Source: Natranaeroarchaeum aerophilus
Lineage (GTDB): Archaea > Halobacteriota > Halobacteria > Halobacteriales > Natronoarchaeaceae
Assembly: GCF_023638055.1 (NCBI RefSeq)
Contig: NZ_JAKRVY010000002.1
Span: 62,001-126,000, forward strand
DNA length: 64,000 nt
Direction of reading: 5' to 3'
In this document: one piece after another, positions 34,146 to 54,848 of the stretch
How the letters are laid out: each line of letters begins with the position of its first letter
Numbering within the stretch: position 1 is the first letter of the stretch
Position numbers and translations under genes: made by a program
The notes under the pieces: generated by a model
The model's database searches: none
What the model saw: the letters and a program-made list of their open reading frames with translations, nothing else
What the model was told of the DNA's origin: nothing

Positions 34146-34460
34146 ATGACAGATTCGCCCCCAGAACTCGAACTGTACAACCTGCAGGGCTGTCCGTACT
34201 GTGCGAAAGTGCGCCGCGCGCTCGACGACCTCGATCTCGACTACCAGACCCACGACGTTCCGCGCTCGCGGAGCGACCGGGACGCCGTCCACGCGGCGAG
34301 CGGCCAGCGCGGCGTCCCGGTGCTGGTGGACCGATCGAACGGGATCGAGGGAATGCCCGAAAGTGACGACATTGTCGCCTATCTCTACGAGGAGTACGGG
34401 GACGGCGAGACGCCGCCGCCATCTGGTATCGTCGATCGTGTGCTTTCGGCGCTGTTCTGA
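34146..34460 (+). CDS. Glutaredoxin-like protein
   Basis: 104-residue thioredoxin-fold protein. It starts ELELYNLQGCPYCAKVRRAL with the active-site CPYC, and has a cis-Pro loop in RGVPVLVDR and a GST-N-like ending (ESDDIVAYLYEEYG). Because haloarchaea use gamma-glutamylcysteine rather than glutathione, the reductant is probably different from that of bacterial glutaredoxin. Monocistronic, followed by repeat-rich DNA. Confidence 0.88.
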   Translation: MTDSPPELELYNLQGCPYCAKVRRALDDLDLDYQTHDVPRSRSDRDAVHAASGQRGVPVLVDRSNGIEGMPESDDIVAYLYEEYGDGETPPPSGIVDRVLSALF

Positions 34461-34473
34461 CGATCGAACCCTG

Positions 34474-34512
34474 ACTTCAATCTTCGAAGTATAAAACTTC
34501 GAAAACTGAAGT
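34474..34512. repeat. Nested double palindrome after the glutaredoxin gene
   Basis: Outer arms ACTTCA (34474-34479) and TGAAGT (34507-34512) enclose inner arms TTCGAAGT (34483-34490) and ACTTCGAA (34496-34503), all perfect, around ATAAA. The symmetry is 39 bp long. It lies 13 bp after the glutaredoxin stop, so a terminator-like RNA hairpin is possible. A perfect 14-bp palindrome ACGGTGATCACCGT follows at 34535-34548. Confidence 0.6.
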
Positions 34513-34576: not shown

Positions 34577-34626
34577 CCCCTGCCTCAAGGAGCCGCCAAC
34601 GCCGGCGAGTAGGCAGGGGTAGTTCA
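34577..34626 (+). mobile_element. Possible IS200/IS605-type right-end remnant
   Basis: A perfect 9-bp stem CCCCTGCCT (34577-34585) / AGGCAGGGG (34611-34619) encloses a 25-nt loop with a secondary GCCG/CGGC pairing, and is followed by TAGTTCAC. Such hairpin-plus-short-tail ends resemble the 3' guide-RNA/right ends of haloarchaeal IS1341-type (TnpB) elements. No transposase gene remains. Identification is from memory of such ends and is uncertain. Confidence 0.35.
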
Positions 34627-34974
34627 CCCGATCGTCAGCACACGATCCGACGTCGTGACGACATCGAGCAGGTCCGACATCGTCGAGACGGGACAGACGT
34701 CGCTGCCCTCGCTGTTGCGGATCTCCAGACAGGTACCACAGGCGAGCAGTTCGCCACCTGCCTCGTCGAACGCCTCCATCCGGTCGCGAACGTCGAACTC
34801 GTCGTTGTCGGTGATCTCCTCGGCCTCGACGCCCTCGCCGAGCAGGAAGACGGAGACGTCTTTTCCGTCTTCGAGTGCCGTGATACCGAGTCGGAGCGCG
34901 TTCCACGCACGTTCGGGGTCAGCGGTTTCGAGGACGATTCCGAGGGAGTCGACGCTATCCGATGTGTTCGGCAT
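34624..34974 (-). CDS. DsrE-family protein
   Basis: 116-residue DsrE/DsrF-like protein. Features are LGIVLETADPERAWNALRLG, the phosphate-like loop VFLLGEGVEAEEI and a conserved Cys pair region LLACGTCLEIRNSEG. The family handles sulfur or sulfane transfer, though many archaeal members are uncharacterised. The ATG at 34974 is chosen because TTTATATG lies ~29 bp upstream. A 19-bp near-palindrome overlaps the expected transcription start, implying a dedicated repressor. Confidence 0.8.
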   Translation of the reverse strand: MPNTSDSVDSLGIVLETADPERAWNALRLGITALEDGKDVSVFLLGEGVEAEEITDNDEFDVRDRMEAFDEAGGELLACGTCLEIRNSEGSDVCPVSTMSDLLDVVTTSDRVLTIG

Positions 34975-47510: not shown

Positions 47511-48781
47511 CCGCGCACCTCCGTGAGCAGGGCGGTTGCACGTGATTTCGGCTCGTCGTCGACTTCGGCGAACTCCGAGGCGTCGAGGTTCGCGCCGTAC
47601 TCGTCGACCGAGAGGTGCCCGCGGATGCGGAACTCGCGGCCCACGATCCCCTCGCGGATCGAGTCGGCGACGACGGTCTGATCCATCGCCTCGCGGGCCT
47701 GCTCGCGGGCGTCTTCCAGCCCGCCGCCGTAGATCTCCTCGGTGATTTCGGCGTCGAGCACCGCGGTCAGCGTACCAGTCCCGTCGTCGACGATCGCTTT
47801 CACCCGCAGGTCGTCGTAGGCGTCGACCTCGCCGTGGGTGCGACACTGGCCGTTTTGAACCACTCGATCGCACTCCGGACAGCGCTGGATCAGTCCGGAG
47901 CCCTCCCGGACCGAGAGGACGTGACCGGTCACTTCGACGTCGTAGACGCCGCCCGCGTCGACGGCCTCGCCGATCGCCAGTCGGGTCCCTGTGTCGCTCA
48001 CCTCGACCGTCCGGTCGAGTGCTGTAACTGTTGAGAACTCCGAGACGTTGATCGAGGGGACGCCACGGTACTCGCGGACGTAGGCGTTCTCGACTCTGAC
48101 CGAGTTCCCCTCGGTTTCGAGGTCGGGATGGGGATCCCAGTCGGTGAAGGGGAGCTGTCCCGTCTCGTCCGCGAGCACGCCGCTGAGGATGTCCGTTTCG
48201 CCATCGCGACCGTCGATCGTCCGGCGTTCGACCTCTGCCACCTGCACTTCGACGTTGACGCCGCGGTCGCCCGTCTCGATGTCGACGAGGTCGGCATCGC
48301 CGCCGATCTCGTAGGGCACATCAAGCGGGTCCTCTTCGACGGCAACGCTCGTCCCCTCGCCGAGGTTGAGCTCCGGTTTTCCGTCCCACTCGCGAACGCC
48401 CGCATTGCCGATCGTGAGCGTGTCCCCGGCCGAGAGCCCGAAGTCCTGCCATGCGGTGTAGTCGATTCGACCGGACTCGTCGGCGAGCGTCCCCTCAAAA
48501 ATTGTCTGGTCGTCGCCCTGATACCGGATCGAGCGCTTGCCGACCGACAGCACGCGCGCGGTGACGGTGACGCTCCCGTCCGCGGTCGTGATCTCGTCGA
48601 TGCTCTCAATCGAGTGTGTTCCCGTGGAGTCACTGGTGCCGCCGTACTTGCGCCGCAGGCTCTGTACGGCCTCGTCGATCGGCACGCTGTAGGCGACAAG
48701 GTTCTCCAGGTCCTCTGTGACCTCCTCTTTGTCAACACCGAGGTCGGAGGCGAGCTCCTCGGCACGTTCTTCTACCGTCAT
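47507..48781 (-). CDS. rpa1: Replication protein A, RPA1-type single-strand DNA binding protein
   Basis: 424-residue ssDNA-binding protein with three OB-folds (about residues 60-150, 160-260 and 265-400) and a zinc finger within the third (RCPECDRVVQNGQCRTHG, CX2C...CX2H). An N-terminal HTH-like segment (ERAEELASDLGVDKEEV) precedes. The ATG at 48781 has a TATA-like CTTTTTAATC ~27 bp upstream, so it is leaderless. Head of the rpa1-rpap1-rpe operon. Confidence 0.92.
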   Translation of the reverse strand: MTVEERAEELASDLGVDKEEVTEDLENLVAYSVPIDEAVQSLRRKYGGTSDSTGTHSIESIDEITTADGSVTVTARVLSVGKRSIRYQGDDQTIFEGTLADESGRIDYTAWQDFGLSAGDTLTIGNAGVREWDGKPELNLGEGTSVAVEEDPLDVPYEIGGDADLVDIETGDRGVNVEVQVAEVERRTIDGRDGETDILSGVLADETGQLPFTDWDPHPDLETEGNSVRVENAYVREYRGVPSINVSEFSTVTALDRTVEVSDTGTRLAIGEAVDAGGVYDVEVTGHVLSVREGSGLIQRCPECDRVVQNGQCRTHGEVDAYDDLRVKAIVDDGTGTLTAVLDAEITEEIYGGGLEDAREQAREAMDQTVVADSIREGIVGREFRIRGHLSVDEYGANLDASEFAEVDDEPKSRATALLTEVRG

Positions 48782-48897
48782 CGCTCCCCACTTCGCAGCG
48801 AGTGATTAAAAAGGGTTGGCGGAAAGCGGGAGTGAAATCGGGCAGGGTCCCGCGCCGCCGGTCAGCGGTACTCGTGGACAGTTTCGGCCGAGAGCGA

Positions 48898-49482
48898 TCA
48901 GGCCTCGTCCTCTTCCTCGACGACTTCCGGGTCGCTCATCGCGCTCTGCAGGCTGTCGAGGCCGTTCACCCACGTCGAGACGAGCCCGTACTCCAGATCT
49001 TCGGCAATCGAGAAGTCGAGTTCCTCGCCGTCGATGATCATCGTGCCAGCCTGCACGAGGTAGCCAAGCGCCGCGTCGATGTCCTCTTCGGCCTCCGCGT
49101 CGGCGGCCGCCCGGACGTACTGTTCGATCTCGGCGTCGTCAGTTGCGCCGTTGGCGACGTACTCCTCGGCAGCGTAGAAGACGCAGACAAGGCTGGTCTG
49201 GACATCGTCGACGAGCAACTCCTTTTCCTCGTCGTCGAACTCGACCTCGCTCAGTACGATCTCGCGGATCTCCTCGATCTCGTCCATCGCCGTGTCGGCA
49301 TCGATCTCGCCGTCGTCGTGGGCCGAGACGACTTTTGCGACGGCGATCGCGGCATCGTCCTGCAGGTTGAGCAGGAGTCGTGCCGAGTCCTCGTCTTCGG
49401 GATCGAGATCCTCGTCGGTAATTCGGTCGAGCCAGTTCTGCCAGCGTTCCTCTGAGTAGAACTCGTTCGGCGGCGCGCTCAT
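48898..49482 (-). CDS. DUF2150 family acidic protein
   Basis: 194-residue acidic helical protein of the archaeal DUF2150 family, annotated by its FYSEERWQNWLDRI start and the helices AIAVAKVVSAHDDGEID and EEYVANGATDDAEIEQYVRA. Cytoplasmic, no motif for catalysis. Function unknown. Start ATG at 49482 is preferred; a longer frame adds a basic segment unlike the rest. Confidence 0.75.
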   Translation of the reverse strand: MSAPPNEFYSEERWQNWLDRITDEDLDPEDEDSARLLLNLQDDAAIAVAKVVSAHDDGEIDADTAMDEIEEIREIVLSEVEFDDEEKELLVDDVQTSLVCVFYAAEEYVANGATDDAEIEQYVRAAADAEAEEDIDAALGYLVQAGTMIIDGEELDFSIAEDLEYGLVSTWVNGLDSLQSAMSDPEVVEEEDEA

Positions 49483-49627
49483 ACTCTGACGGTACGCTGG
49501 CGGCTTGAAAACCCTTTCTCTCCGATGCCTTCGGATAATGCGAGGAATATCCGTGATAAAACGGCTGTAGGGCGGCCTACAACAGGATATAGCTCTCGTC
49601 TGGACAATCAACCGGTTGCAGAATAGT

Positions 49628-50467
49628 TTATAAATGGTTGTGGGTATCGATTCCGTACACCGCCCGTGGTGTCTCGACGTGTGCAGTCCTTACTGCCGCG
49701 TCGTAGCCCTCCTCCAGCAGCCAGCGAACTCGCCGTGGGACGGTTTTCGGCCCCATCACCGCGCCGGGGCGATCGGGATCGTCGACAAAGTCGGTCTCCA
49801 TGAGAAACGGCTCGCCCGCCTCGGCCGCGACGCGCAGGCGGTCTTTCTCGCTCATCACGCTCGGGATCGGCCCCGCGAGTGTGCCCCCGGAGTAGTGTTT
49901 GACAACCTTGCCCGCCGGAAGCCCGGCTTCTTCGGCCCACTCGGCGACCTCGGTCAGATCGTCGGTCCCCTCCGTGTGTAACTGGACTGCACAGTCTAGC
50001 TCAGCGCCCAACTCGAAGGCATGGCGCATGACCGCGTTCGAGGCGTCCCAGACGGCGTCGTCGACCTCGTAGTGGGGCCGCCCCGACTTCAGCGCGAGCG
50101 CCCGACCATCGCCAACGATCTCCGCGGCGACGTCCAGCCCGGCCTGCATGAGATCGCGGGCCTCCTCGGGCGTGAATCCTCGGTCATCGACGAGCCGGGA
50201 GATCAGCCCCGGGTGGACGCCAAGCACCGGCCACGCCCGCCCGTCGAGTAGCTCGCTCGCGTCCTCGACGATCGCGATCGTCCGCTCGAACACCTCACGG
50301 AAGTCCTCGCCAGTGTTGACCTCGACGTCGAGATGCCAGGAGGGCTTGTTGACGACCAGCAGATGCGTCCCGCCGAGTCGCGCGAAGTCATCGACGGCGT
50401 CTAACCCCCGGCCGTAGTCGGGATCGAGGTGCATGTGGTTGTCCAGCACCGGCGTGTCGAGTTCCAT
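49628..50467 (-). CDS. TatD-related metal-dependent hydrolase
   Basis: 279-residue amidohydrolase-fold protein of the archaeal TatD-like group. Metal ligand motif LDNHMHLDPDYGRG at the N-terminus; ALKSGRPHYEV, VQLHTEGTDD, VVKHYSGG and METDFVDDPDR follow the order of TatD metal-site residues. The substrate is unknown (TatD nucleases are one precedent). Monocistronic. Confidence 0.85.
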   Translation of the reverse strand: MELDTPVLDNHMHLDPDYGRGLDAVDDFARLGGTHLLVVNKPSWHLDVEVNTGEDFREVFERTIAIVEDASELLDGRAWPVLGVHPGLISRLVDDRGFTPEEARDLMQAGLDVAAEIVGDGRALALKSGRPHYEVDDAVWDASNAVMRHAFELGAELDCAVQLHTEGTDDLTEVAEWAEEAGLPAGKVVKHYSGGTLAGPIPSVMSEKDRLRVAAEAGEPFLMETDFVDDPDRPGAVMGPKTVPRRVRWLLEEGYDAAVRTAHVETPRAVYGIDTHNHL

Positions 50468-50509
50468 GGGTCGAGGTTGGACGGTGGGGCCGAAAGGACT
50501 TCGTTTCGT

Positions 50510-50959
50510 TTACGTATCGGTCCAGAACGCACGCTGGCGCTCTTCGATTTCTTCGAGCACCAGCGAGAACACGTCCCGCCAGTCGTTCGGATCGGACGCG
50601 TCGGTTCCCGGCGTCGGTGCGTCGGGACCGGGATGGATGTGGTCACGAGCATTGTGCTCTGATGGATGCCGATCCCATCGGTGGTCGAACGATCCTTCGA
50701 TCGTTTCCTCGTGATAGTGCACCGAGAAATCCCCGTTCTCGTACCAGACGATCTCCAGTCGCGCCGTGTCCACGCTCTCCGGATAGAATCCGGGGTCATA
50801 CGTTAGAACAATCCGATCCGGGGCAAACGCTGGCTGTCGGTCGATATCCTTGAACCGATCGTCGGTCCGGCATCGGTCCGCGATCACGTCCAGCCGATCG
50901 AAATCGACCGGCGCGCCGCTGTGCTCGTCGTCGGACGCTTGTTCGTCGCGGTTCGTCAT
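50510..50959 (-). CDS. TumE/DUF6516-like protein, putative toxin of a toxin-antitoxin-like pair
   Basis: 149-residue protein. The central pattern YPESVDTARLEIVWYENGDF, then YHEETIEGSFDHRWDRHP, and the terminal RDVFSLVLEEIEERQ resemble the DUF6516 (TumE) toxin family. Its start overlaps the HTH gene by 4 bases (ATGA), so the two are strictly coupled. By analogy TumE is the toxin and the HTH protein its regulator/antitoxin, but no toxicity is shown here. Confidence 0.6.
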   Translation of the reverse strand: MTNRDEQASDDEHSGAPVDFDRLDVIADRCRTDDRFKDIDRQPAFAPDRIVLTYDPGFYPESVDTARLEIVWYENGDFSVHYHEETIEGSFDHRWDRHPSEHNARDHIHPGPDAPTPGTDASDPNDWRDVFSLVLEEIEERQRAFWTDT

Positions 50960-51531
50960 ACAGCGGGCCGCTCCGTCGCTCCGTCACTCGCGTCCGTCTG
51001 CAGTGCCCGTTCAAGCAGCCGTATCCGCCGTCGCGCCGTCCGCCACGCAGCCACGTCCTCCCAGACCCCCGCTACTGACTCTCCTCGCTCGGACGCCTGT
51101 CCCGTAACCGAGACGTCGTCCGGCACGTCGACGCCGAACGACTGAGCATACGCGTCTGCACGCTCGGTTTCCTCGGCGAGCATGTCGACGAGTTCGTCGT
51201 TGGCGAATTCCTCGCGGAGTCGCTGAACACGACGCCAGTCCAGATACGCCTGATTCCGCTGGTAAGTCGCGGGGGACTCGGTGACACGCGTAACGATCCC
51301 CATGCGCTCGAACCACGCCAGATACTCCCGTGCGGCGTCGACACCGTGACCAGCTCTGTCAGCGATCTCGCTCACTGGTGCGGCCTCGTCCAGTCCGAGC
51401 ACTGTCTCGAAGAAGTCGTCGCGGGTCCGCCCGCCAGAAATAACTTCTTCGGGATCGGTCAACGCCTCGAAGTCCGGCAGTTCACCGCGTTCCCCCGCGT
51501 CGGCCCGTAGCTCCTCGGCTGGCTCGTCCAT
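50956..51531 (-). CDS. HTH regulator/antitoxin-like protein (DUF7342 type)
   Basis: 191-residue protein. Residues ~40-95 form a predicted winged helix (FETVLGLDEAAPVSEIADRA, then EYLAWFERMGIVTRV). The second half (RNQAYLDWRRVQRLREEFA) is helical and acidic, ending in an Arg-rich segment RTARRRIRLLERAL. Upstream lies a perfect 8-bp inverted repeat (51553-51584) only 22 bp before the start and three 22-bp-spaced repeats (51615-51680), implying autoregulation. The ATG at 51531 is the best start; a longer frame exists. Confidence 0.65.
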   Translation of the reverse strand: MDEPAEELRADAGERGELPDFEALTDPEEVISGGRTRDDFFETVLGLDEAAPVSEIADRAGHGVDAAREYLAWFERMGIVTRVTESPATYQRNQAYLDWRRVQRLREEFANDELVDMLAEETERADAYAQSFGVDVPDDVSVTGQASERGESVAGVWEDVAAWRTARRRIRLLERALQTDASDGATERPAV

Positions 51532-51552
51532 GCGTACAGATTCGACTGCCTG

Positions 51553-51584
51553 CGGAATAAGTCTTTGTCTCACGGATTATTCCG
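51553..51584. promoter_or_regulatory. Inverted repeat overlapping the promoter of the HTH/TumE pair
   Basis: CGGAATAA-N16-TTATTCCG with perfect 8-bp arms. It begins 22 bp upstream of the HTH start codon, in the core promoter region. Autoregulation by the HTH protein is the simplest role. Confidence 0.6.
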
Positions 51585-51614
51585 TCTGCTATCGGTTGGC
51601 CTTGCTACTGATCG

Positions 51615-51680
51615 TACTACAAAATTCGAAGTGTGATACTACTATTCTTGAATTATTATACTACAGATATCGAAGTAATG
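51615..51680. repeat. Three 22-bp-spaced imperfect repeats
   Basis: The hexamer TACTAC occurs at 51615, 51637 and 51659, exactly 22 bp apart (two helical turns). Units 1 and 3 also share ATCGAAGT/TTCGAAGT at the same offset; unit 2 is degenerate. AT-rich, located between the NYN gene's stop (51700) and the inverted repeat before the HTH gene. Iteron-like operator suggested. Confidence 0.55.
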
Positions 51681-51699
51681 GCGAAACACGTTTCTACAG

Positions 51700-52170
51700 T
51701 CACTCTCCAAGCAATACTGCGTCGTTCGCCGCGTTCCGCAGCGCATCAGATCTGCCGTGCGTCCCAGGAGCGATCGCCACGGTACGGATGCCGTTCCGGC
51801 CCGCCGTCTCCAGCACCGGCTTGAAGTCAGTATCGCGCGAGGCGATCACCAGCACGTCGATCTCGTCGCGGACTGCCGTCTCGGCGGCGTCGATGGCGAG
51901 CTTGACGTCGACGTCCCCGCTCGTGATGACGACCTCGTAGCCCCGCGCTTCGGCGGCCTGAATCAGTCCCGGCGTGGCGTGTTCGTCGAGATAGAGGCGC
52001 GTGACGCCCAGCTGTCCGAACTCCGCGGCGGCGTCCCGGACATCGTCGAGGTCGACATCGAACTCGTCGCGGAGCACGTTCGGACCGTCCACGAACAGTC
52101 CGACCCGAACGCGGTCGGCGTTGTCGACCGCCGAGATCCGGTCCTGCAGGGCACGTAACCGATCAACCAT
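51700..52170 (-). CDS. NYN-domain (LabA-like) putative ribonuclease
   Basis: 156-residue PIN-like NYN protein. Acidic active-site motifs are LFVDGPN, TSGDVDVKLAID and IASRDTDFKPVLE, followed by DALRNAANDAVLL. NYN domains are metal-dependent nucleases, often acting on RNA. It lies just upstream of the TA-like pair in the same orientation with its own region of control, so a shared role in RNA degradation is possible but not shown. The N-terminus VDRLRALQDRISAV is a short helix. Confidence 0.82.
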   Translation of the reverse strand: MVDRLRALQDRISAVDNADRVRVGLFVDGPNVLRDEFDVDLDDVRDAAAEFGQLGVTRLYLDEHATPGLIQAAEARGYEVVITSGDVDVKLAIDAAETAVRDEIDVLVIASRDTDFKPVLETAGRNGIRTVAIAPGTHGRSDALRNAANDAVLLGE

Positions 52171-52287
52171 GGGCGTTCTATCCAGTCTCGGCGGATAGGT
52201 GTGACGAAACGCCGGGCGCGACGACTGCTCGATCCCCGGCAGGGAACGGACGGAAAATCATTACTCCCTGCCCGACAATCCACCTGT

Positions 52288-53409
52288 ATGTCGCTACGCC
52301 TGCCGCCGCTCGCGGCGGTACACCAGGATCGGGCCGCCAAACTCACCGACTTCGGCGGCTGGGAGATGCCCGTCGAGTTCGACTCGATCCGGACCGAACA
52401 CGAGGCCGTCCGGAAGTCGGCCGGGATCTTCGATGTCTCGCACATGAGCGAGATCGAAGTAAGTGGGCCGGACGCCACCACGTTGATGCAACGGCTCACC
52501 TCGAACGACGTCACCGCCCTCTCGCCGGGTGACGCCCAGTACTCGATGATCACCGACGAGGCCGGGCTGATAATCGACGACACGGTGGTCTACCGGCTCC
52601 CCGAGGGCGACCGTGCGGTCGCCCCGGATGGCGACGGCGCCCGGTATCTGTTCGTCCCGAACGCCGGCCACGACGAACTCATGGTCGACCGATGGGTCGA
52701 CCACCGCGACGAGTTGGGTCTCGATGCGAGCGTTACGAACCGCACCGAGGAGTACGCGATGGTCGCCCTGCAGGGGCCCGACGCGTCGGACGCGCTCGCG
52801 GCAGTCGCCTCGGGCGACGTCCGGAACCTCTCGCCGTTCGAGGCCACGTACACCTCCGTCGCGGGCGTCGACGCGCTCGTCTCGCGGACGGGCTACACCG
52901 GCGAGGACGGCTACGAGATTCTCGCGCCGTGGGACGACGCAGAGACAGTCTGGTCGGCCTTCGACTGTCAGCCCTGTGGACTCGGCGCGCGGGACACGCT
53001 CCGGATCGAAGCCGGATTCTTGCTCTCGGGCCAGGACTTCGACTACGAGGATGACCCACGCAACCCCTACGAGGCGGGCGTCGGCTTCAGCGTCAAACTC
53101 GACACCGAGTTCGTCGGGCGTGACGCGCTCGAAGGCGTTCACGAGGAGGGATCGGACCAGAAGTTCGTGGGTCTGCGCCTGATCGACCGGGGCGTCCCGC
53201 GTCACGGCTATCCGATCACGACGCCCGACGGCGAGACGATCGGCACCGTGACGAGCGGGACGATGAGCCCGACGCTCGACGAACCAATCGGACTGGGCTA
53301 CGTTGACCGCGAGCACGCCGCGGTCGGGTCGACCGTGCGCGTCGAAATCCGCGGCCAGCCGAAAAAGGCAAGGATCGAACCCACGAACCTACTCGACGAA
53401 TACAGATGA
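52288..53409 (+). CDS. gcvT: Glycine cleavage system aminomethyltransferase (T protein)
   Basis: 373-residue tetrahydrofolate-dependent aminomethyltransferase that releases ammonia and makes methylene-THF. Features are [16 protein letters not shown] near the N-terminus, [12 protein letters not shown] mid-chain and [17 protein letters not shown] near the end. The start ATG at 52288 (MSLRLPPL) follows family length. It overlaps gcvH by 4 bases, so coupled. Confidence 0.95.
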
Positions 53410-53789
53410 GCTTCGAAACTCCCGACGATCTCGGCTATCTGGAATCACACGAATGGGCCCGACGCGACGGTGACACTGTACGGGTCGGCATCACGGACTT
53501 CGCACAGGACGAACTCGGCGATGTCGTCTTCGTCGAACTTCCCGACGTCGGCGACGAACTCGACGCCCAGGCGGAGTTCGGCGTCGTCGAGAGCATCAAG
53601 GCCGTCTCCGATCTCTACGCTCCGGTCGGCGGCGAGGTCACCGCGGTCAACGAGGACCTGTTCAGCGCGCCCGAGCTCGTCAACGACGATCCGTACGGTG
53701 AGGGGTGGATGCTCGAACTTGAACTCTCCGAGGAAAGCGACTTCGACGACCTGCTGTCGGCCGAGGAGTACACCGAACAGACCGAATAG
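53406..53789 (+). CDS. gcvH: Glycine cleavage system H protein
   Basis: 127-residue lipoate carrier shuttling the aminomethyl group between P, T and L proteins. The lipoylated Lys is K65 in [17 protein letters not shown]. Full-length and intact. Its stop is only 3 bp from the convergent MccF-like gene's stop. Confidence 0.96.
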
Positions 53790-53792
53790 CGG

Positions 53793-54848
53793 CTACGCGA
53801 ACCGGATCCTCTCTTCGTTCGGATCGAGACGAACCCGCCCGCCGAGCGGGAGCGGCGCGATCGGCGTCGTATGCCCCCAGTCGACGCCAAGTACAACTGG
53901 TGCGTCCGGGTTGTACCGCTCGACCTCCGCAATAACTGTTTCATAGAGGCGCTCCCGGTACGCCTCCCGTTCTTCTCGGGGCGGCTCCGTCAGATAGCTC
54001 CGCGTCGGCGGTCGCCCAACGATTACCCCTGCGAATCGCTCCAGGAGCCCCCGCTCGCCAAGACACATGAGCGTCGCGCCGACATCCTCCGGCTCCGGAA
54101 TCGTCTCGGCGGTCTCCAGTCCCAGAATGCAGCCGTCGAGTGCGTCGGCGTCCGGCAGAAATCGGTTGGCCGCCAGTTGCCACTCGACGATCGACCGACA
54201 GCCGCCCCAGAGCCGCCCCTCGACCGTCTCACCCGCGCCAGCCCAGCGCCAGCCCGGATTCGGTTCGTAGGTCGGCGATTCGTCCATCTGCGAGGGATCG
54301 GTCCACCACGTCGTTGGTTCGTCGGTCCACTCCTCGCTGGGGGCAAGGTCGCCCATCGACTCTTCAAAGAACGCCCGGCGACAGTACCGCTCGGTGTAGG
54401 CCGGAAGCTCGCCCGGAATCGCCAGCTCGTTCATCAACTGCGCGCCGTTGTACGAGACGATCCCCTGATTCCAGAGATAAAGCCCGAGATTGGTGTTGTC
54501 GCTCATCCCGAAAAACCGGGTCGGGGTAGCCCGGAGCACGTCGGGGTCGAGGTGTTTCAGGACCCGTAGCTGGTCGCTCCCGCCGATCGTCGCGACGATG
54601 CCCGTGATCTCCGGGTTGCGGACGGCGGCGTGGGTGTCCGCCGCACGGGCCCGGGGATTGGCTGCGAGAAAGTCGTCCCCCTGTCTGGCGGTCGGGTAGA
54701 CCACGGGTTCGAGACCGAACACCTCGCGAAGGCGTTCGAGTCCCAGCTCGAAGACGTGCGGGGCGTCGCGTGCGCTCCCGCTCGACGGCGCGAGGACGGC
54801 GACCCGGTCGCCCGGTTCCATTGGCGGCGGCGTGACGAACTCCGGCAT
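53793..54848 (-). CDS. LD-carboxypeptidase/MccF-type serine peptidase (S66)
   Basis: 351-residue S66-family peptidase. Nucleophile S116 in FFGMSDNTNL, E245 in ILGLETAETI and H326 in GVDWGHTTPIAP form the expected Ser-Glu-His triad. In bacteria the family trims murein peptides or inactivates microcin C (MccF). As an archaeon lacking murein, a peptide/nucleotide-amidase or detoxification role is more likely; the EEWTDEPTTWW loop is MccF-like. It is inserted convergently between gcvH and gcvPA. Confidence 0.88.
   Translation of the reverse strand: MPEFVTPPPMEPGDRVAVLAPSSGSARDAPHVFELGLERLREVFGLEPVVYPTARQGDDFLAANPRARAADTHAAVRNPEITGIVATIGGSDQLRVLKHLDPDVLRATPTRFFGMSDNTNLGLYLWNQGIVSYNGAQLMNELAIPGELPAYTERYCRRAFFEESMGDLAPSEEWTDEPTTWWTDPSQMDESPTYEPNPGWRWAGAGETVEGRLWGGCRSIVEWQLAANRFLPDADALDGCILGLETAETIPEPEDVGATLMCLGERGLLERFAGVIVGRPPTRSYLTEPPREEREAYRERLYETVIAEVERYNPDAPVVLGVDWGHTTPIAPLPLGGRVRLDPNEERIRFA

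Follow-up and report, generated by a model that had tools for sequence, protein, structure and literature searches.

A putative toxin-antitoxin-like gene pair beside one of many dispersed 22-bp repeat arrays in Natranaeroarchaeum aerophilus

We analysed a stretch of 64,000 nucleotides from Natranaeroarchaeum aerophilus (the window; its genome is G000 below) and concentrated on two coupled genes and the intergenic region ahead of them. An earlier note had described an ATGA-coupled gene pair, a palindrome at its core promoter, three TACTAC-headed repeats at 22-bp spacing further upstream and a putative NYN nuclease gene facing the same way, and each of these elements was found in place. The open reading frames at 50956-51531 and 50510-50959, both on the minus strand, share an ATGA overlap, and the palindrome is a perfect 8+8 inverted repeat, in a search where 0.05 matches were expected by chance even with three mismatches tolerated. 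The TACTAC starts lie at 51615, 51637 and 51659, in exact 22-bp steps, so that TACTAC-N16-TACTAC occurs twice in register (from 51615 and from 51637), which none of 100 shuffles reproduced. The NYN gene has the same direction as the pair (Pfam NYN, E 1.6e-22). The repeats form a three-unit array that matched our array profile R1 (65 positions, built from three-unit arrays) at 51615-51678 with 57.4 bits. The features, in window positions, are as follows.

34474..34512, no strand: a further, two-unit array of the 22-bp family, flanked by the convergent genes 34146-34460 (+) and 34624-34974 (-)
50508..51614, no strand: insert of about 1.1 kb with the pair and the candidate operator, missing in the sister species G001; right border placed to within about 15 bp
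50510..50959, minus strand: gene 2, the partner, 149 aa, TumE-like putative toxin (ATGA overlap with gene 1; sub-threshold TumE likeness)
50956..51531, minus strand: gene 1, 191 aa, a winged-helix protein of the DUF7342 family and putative autorepressor/antitoxin (Pfam PF24033, predicted model, orthologues)
51553..51584, no strand: candidate operator CGGAATAA-N16-TTATTCCG at the pair's promoter, over its TATA region (perfect inverted repeat, conserved placement)
51616..51632, plus strand: array unit 1, ACTACAAAATTCGAAGT, 17 bp (profile R1)
51638..51654, plus strand: array unit 2, ACTACTATTCTTGAATT, 17 bp, degenerate, one 22-bp step away from each neighbouring unit
51660..51676, plus strand: array unit 3, ACTACAGATATCGAAGT, 17 bp, same array as units 1 and 2
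51700..52170, minus strand: NYN-domain gene, TIGR00288-like, ancestral neighbour outside the pair; the array follows its stop codon

Gene 1 matched PF24033 (DUF7342) in Pfam with an E-value of 4.8e-29. Its AlphaFold2 model (pLDDT 74.6) has a winged-helix topology with weak Foldseek matches to IclR/MarR-type domains, and we found no paper on DUF7342. Orthologues of gene 1 (55-64% identical) were observed in a patchy set of genera among the 195 genomes of the order searched, while the best relative in G001, the other species of the genus examined, was a paralogue of 36% identity. A counterpart of gene 2 (60-70% identical) immediately follows gene 1 at 27 of the 29 orthologous loci, and in nearly all of them gene 2 starts one base ahead of the gene 1 stop codon. 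The pair is a bicistron with the partner gene upstream, the arrangement that marks TumE-TumA and type II toxin-antitoxin units. Three more DUF7342 and TumE-like pairs with the same layout, 25-38% identical to the window pair, were observed in G000 (C2:406804-407715, C11:6362-7131 and C1:465917-466764). No viral relatives of gene 2 were found. As judged from sequence, the DUF7342 gene and its partner are an accessory, horizontally distributed pair.

The kinship of gene 2 with TumE, which the earlier note had proposed as a DUF6516 match, was visible only below the PF20126 cut-off of 23.4 bits. Gene 2 had no match in Pfam, NCBIfam, PADLOC or PHROGs, and PF20126 gave no match at E<=10 to gene 2 and 19 of its orthologues. 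A paralogue 33% identical to gene 2 scored 16.3 bits against PF20126 (E 0.01), also below the cut-off. When about 1500 proteins were ranked with an HMM of the gene-2 family, seven of the twelve best loci outside the family were TumE proteins (best E 0.007), and a borderline PF20126 match (L303) connected the gene-2 family set with the TumE set; a profile-profile comparison of the two families with hhalign was negative. The predicted model of gene 2 (mean pLDDT 68.8) consists of a helix, five strands and a C-terminal helix. Fold searches of the PDB gave no significant match for either the gene 1 or the gene 2 model, with none at E<=0.001 for gene 2. TumE has been described as an alpha+beta fold in which a seven-stranded antiparallel sheet carries two helices (PMC10584680). 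Like the TumA-TumE superfamily (DUF6516, PF20126), the window pair is an operon of two genes, of which the upstream one encodes a putative DNA-binding partner (PMC10584680), and gene 2 resembles TumE as a small downstream protein, alpha+beta in its predicted model, with an R-x-D...H...H region and weak profile links. However, gene 2 falls under the PF20126 cut-off and has five predicted strands against seven, and the partner here is a DUF7342 winged-helix protein, which differs from the partner validated for TumE (PMC10584680). Taken together, gene 2 is likely a remote TumE relative, its membership being unproven.

Upstream of the orthologous pairs, the block cGGaaTAtTCCgt...aAAGATTTATTCCGt recurs at a distance of 19-22 bp ahead of the ATG, in most cases with 16-17 bp between its arms, and the palindrome columns carried a mean of 0.5-1.6 bits versus about 0.1 further upstream. 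The palindrome occupies the place that TATA has in leaderless haloarchaeal promoters. No second copy of the motif occurs in G000, and G001 showed no excess of it over control level, weak two-mismatch matches aside. Such uniqueness is as expected for a local autoregulatory operator, which is the simplest reading of the palindrome. Most likely, the DUF7342 protein, alone or with its partner, would bind this conserved site over the TATA region and repress its own promoter; the two genes would be transcribed together and self-repressed as in type II toxin-antitoxin units. The expectation that both kinds of repeat would be conserved upstream of homologous pairs held for the palindrome, which was kept in other genera, but not for the array, whose profile was empty in the other Halobacteriales genomes searched. 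Thus an autoregulated toxin-antitoxin-like unit is credible for the coupled HTH and toxin-like genes with their conserved palindrome, whereas the 22-bp repeats lie outside that unit.

The 22-bp repeats belong to a dispersed family. The unit TACTACANNNTTYGAAGT, with up to two mismatches allowed, was found at 95 sites in G000 and 75 in G001, versus 1 and 3 sites for a reversed-pattern control, and these make up about 46 arrays in G000 and at least 37 in G001, with 2-5 units each. The unit consensus, ACTWCR-N5-YGWAGT, is 17 bp long and pseudo-palindromic, normally with one ACTACA and one ACTTCG half-site. Of 126 steps between units, 106 measured 22 bp (about two helical turns), 10 measured 21 bp and 10 measured 44 bp. 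Unlike half-sites were strongly preferred (108 units vs 61 expected) over like pairs (14 vs 61), with both-ACTACA units observed 10 times (34 expected) and both-ACTTCG units 4 times (27 expected). The spacing TACTAC-N16-TACTAC was also observed where an AbrB-like/PIN-like gene pair begins (L022 3990-4020; G000 C8:30789-30816); no other part of the unit is present there, and a connection to the arrays is improbable. We found no paper on such phased arrays.

None of 83 arrays lay within genes called by a simple codon-usage script, on which these placement counts are based, while the coding fraction of the window is 0.86. Of the arrays in G000, 14 were observed between convergent, 12 between divergent and 20 between tandem genes; median distances were 39 bp to stop codons and 84 bp to start codons. 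Orientation of the units relative to transcription had no consistent bias (17:16 and 11:20). Judged by eye, the array neighbours (DnaG, HisS, GatB, MutL, HMG-CoA reductase and others) share no function. One of the largest arrays, with five units, lies upstream of dnaG, where it directly follows the preceding gene's stop codon (L077 2564-2667). No clustering of arrays along the G001 chromosome was detected (KS P 0.44). Along the G001 chromosome, array orientation was mostly minus in the first 1.4 Mb and mostly plus over the remaining half; this is suggestive only (P 0.08 with a free boundary), and the switch is possibly replication-related.

Comparison of the two species indicated that the arrays are both old and maintained. 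Thirty-six of the 37 compared G001 arrays flank the same orthologous genes as the G000 arrays, and the second array in the window is likewise matched by one at the corresponding G001 position (L168). Identity between the species was 86.2% in the array cores, 70.8% in the flanks, 71.4% in the unit centres and 65.2% in the spacers. The cores exceeded the flanks at 35 of 36 loci, by 0.155 in identity (95% CI 0.10-0.20), a difference between two species that is somewhat inflated because the sites were picked for their motif match. The array cores thus appear to be selectively conserved.

In the two species of the genus, profile R1 matched 64 and 58 times; 57 other Halobacteriales genomes, among them seven from the window's family, gave no match. 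Many of the Halobacteriales genomes searched carry orthologous pairs. When 295 genomes sampled across the phylum were again searched by profile, under stricter filters, a single genome from another family (G093) was added, with two matches. In 800 kb sampled from it we found ten matches at eight loci, at intergenic positions; the weaker ones may be chance. Its best matches follow a variant consensus rich in ACTATA, and its phased pairs peak at 22 bp (17 vs about 5). The diverged intergenic arrays with 22-bp phase in G093 are:

L334 2474-2523
L335 2542-2579
L337 1877-1919
L356 16770-16831
L365 6133-6171

The array family is therefore not strictly bound to the genus, and among the genomes searched the diverged version was found outside it only in G093. 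R1 gave no match at E<=10 in 800 kb of two sister genera, no array was seen at their dnaG locus, and the exact array pattern was absent among GTDB genome contigs. A search for a 22-bp lag in intergenic DNA gave no above-background peak in G093, G005, G004 or 80 named loci, from which it follows that this method detects strong arrays only. A viral origin was also considered; six exact matches scattered through the IMG/VR viral collection were taken as chance.

Several features of the arrays point in one direction, namely conservation of the cores and not the spacers, a phase that is kept, an orientation blind to transcription and unlike half-sites that would disrupt pairing in an RNA stem. On these grounds the arrays are most likely double-stranded-DNA platforms for a putative DNA-binding protein. 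Binding by this candidate protein would be sequence-specific and cooperative, along a single face of the helix. Since the sites also lie between convergent genes and their neighbours have no functional theme, a genome-wide role is favoured over a regulon, and the platforms may serve a lineage-specific role in chromosome organisation or insulation between transcription units and not the control of single promoters. We tentatively propose, with less than even confidence, a putative haloarchaeal chromosome-organising or insulator-like protein whose phased dimers would load onto the unlike half-sites of about fifty intergenic arrays. Its specificity may drift between lineages, with ACTACA/ACTTCG in the window's genus and the ACTATA-rich variant in G093. 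Iteron-like arrays and parS/ParB-type sites are bound by partition or nucleoid proteins. Our arrays are similar to them in having pseudo-palindromic sites on one helical face dispersed over the chromosome, but differ in occupying tens of loci that are unclustered in G001.

The arrays may instead be operators of a global transcription factor, each regulating its neighbour, in which case the window copy may regulate the pair. We consider this rather unlikely. Many arrays do lie 50-95 bp upstream of start codons, just above core-promoter distance, and their conserved cores are compatible with such operators; a subset may form a regulon, given that roughly one quarter of the arrays are divergent and more are tandem, often 50-150 bp from start codons. 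Against it, the 14 convergent arrays of the 46 in G000 have no called start near them, and no common function was seen among the neighbours. Moreover, 26 of 38 arrays in tandem settings are closer to the stop than to the start codon, and the dnaG array is about 150 bp ahead of the start codon, well above the conserved dnaG promoter region.

Dispersal by a transposase is a further possibility, the arrays then being REP/MITE-like, mobile or formerly mobile repeats that are now decaying. Bacterial REP/BIME repeats are short, imperfectly palindromic and strictly extragenic, occur in tens of copies and are often arrayed. Our arrays share the short, imperfect palindromes, the extragenic placement, the tens of copies and the arrayed layout, and their restriction to a lineage would also suit mobile repeats. 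They depart from REP/BIME repeats in the strict 22-bp phase, the unlike half-sites, the cores under selection and the static positions between species. REP-like or MITE-like mobility entails differing positions in related genomes, whereas the orthologous positions of 36 of 37 arrays imply no recent movement; array cores better conserved than their flanks likewise do not suit decaying elements. Small palindrome-bearing elements are numerous in haloarchaea, e.g. PATEs, which are mobile and have near-terminal palindromes (PMC3119063). The arrays resemble PATEs in being haloarchaeal and palindrome-bearing, but have neither a body nor constant ends, their common sequence being the phased unit alone in 2-5 copies. 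Mobile repeats are thus an unlikely explanation, which we rank below a global factor.

As RNA, the units may act as hairpins in 3' end processing, stability or termination. On either strand, folding of the arrays was better than that of shuffled sequences (mean z -1.9), and many are located close behind stop codons. However, the preferred unlike half-sites give stem mismatches (A-A and A-C, or U-U), arrays are also present in divergent regions, and the lack of a consistent orientation to transcription is a further objection. The stem mismatches and orientation counts disfavour RNA hairpins, and we regard them as improbable.

At the locus of the pair, window positions 48029-50507 and 51699-53866 match adjoining parts of a colinear G001 locus (L169) with 88% and 91.5% identity, while the roughly 1.1 kb from 50508 to about 51614 is absent there. 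The G001 locus contains the NYN gene, the array and the hydrolase gene in matching order without the pair, and the NYN protein gene is 100% identical. A pair near NYN was observed in none of 80 other haloarchaeal NYN loci. The empty site in G001, the colinear flanks and the NYN loci together suggest that the pair with its palindrome was inserted beside an existing array, and arrival next to an array already present is the most likely history. The earlier view that palindrome and 22-bp repeats form one elaborate control region for the pair, which their proximity and the exact phase of three units above the promoter had encouraged, is very improbable, since the array is present without the pair in G001 and recurs at some 45 other loci (about 46 intergenic sites in all, with unrelated neighbours), while orthologous pairs keep the palindrome and the array profile is blank in the other genomes searched. 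On the G001 empty site and the genome-wide copies, we reject the array as the operator of the pair.

The control region is therefore probably two independent systems side by side, a toxin-antitoxin-like module and one of the genome-wide array platforms of the host. An accessory module of this kind that lands beside an array can mimic a single elaborate promoter, and control regions read from one genome can mislead in this way. For the haloarchaea, selectively kept, helically phased arrays at about fifty intergenic sites would imply a new genome-wide DNA-binding system, and the array sequences provide an exact bait with which its putative binding protein may be found.
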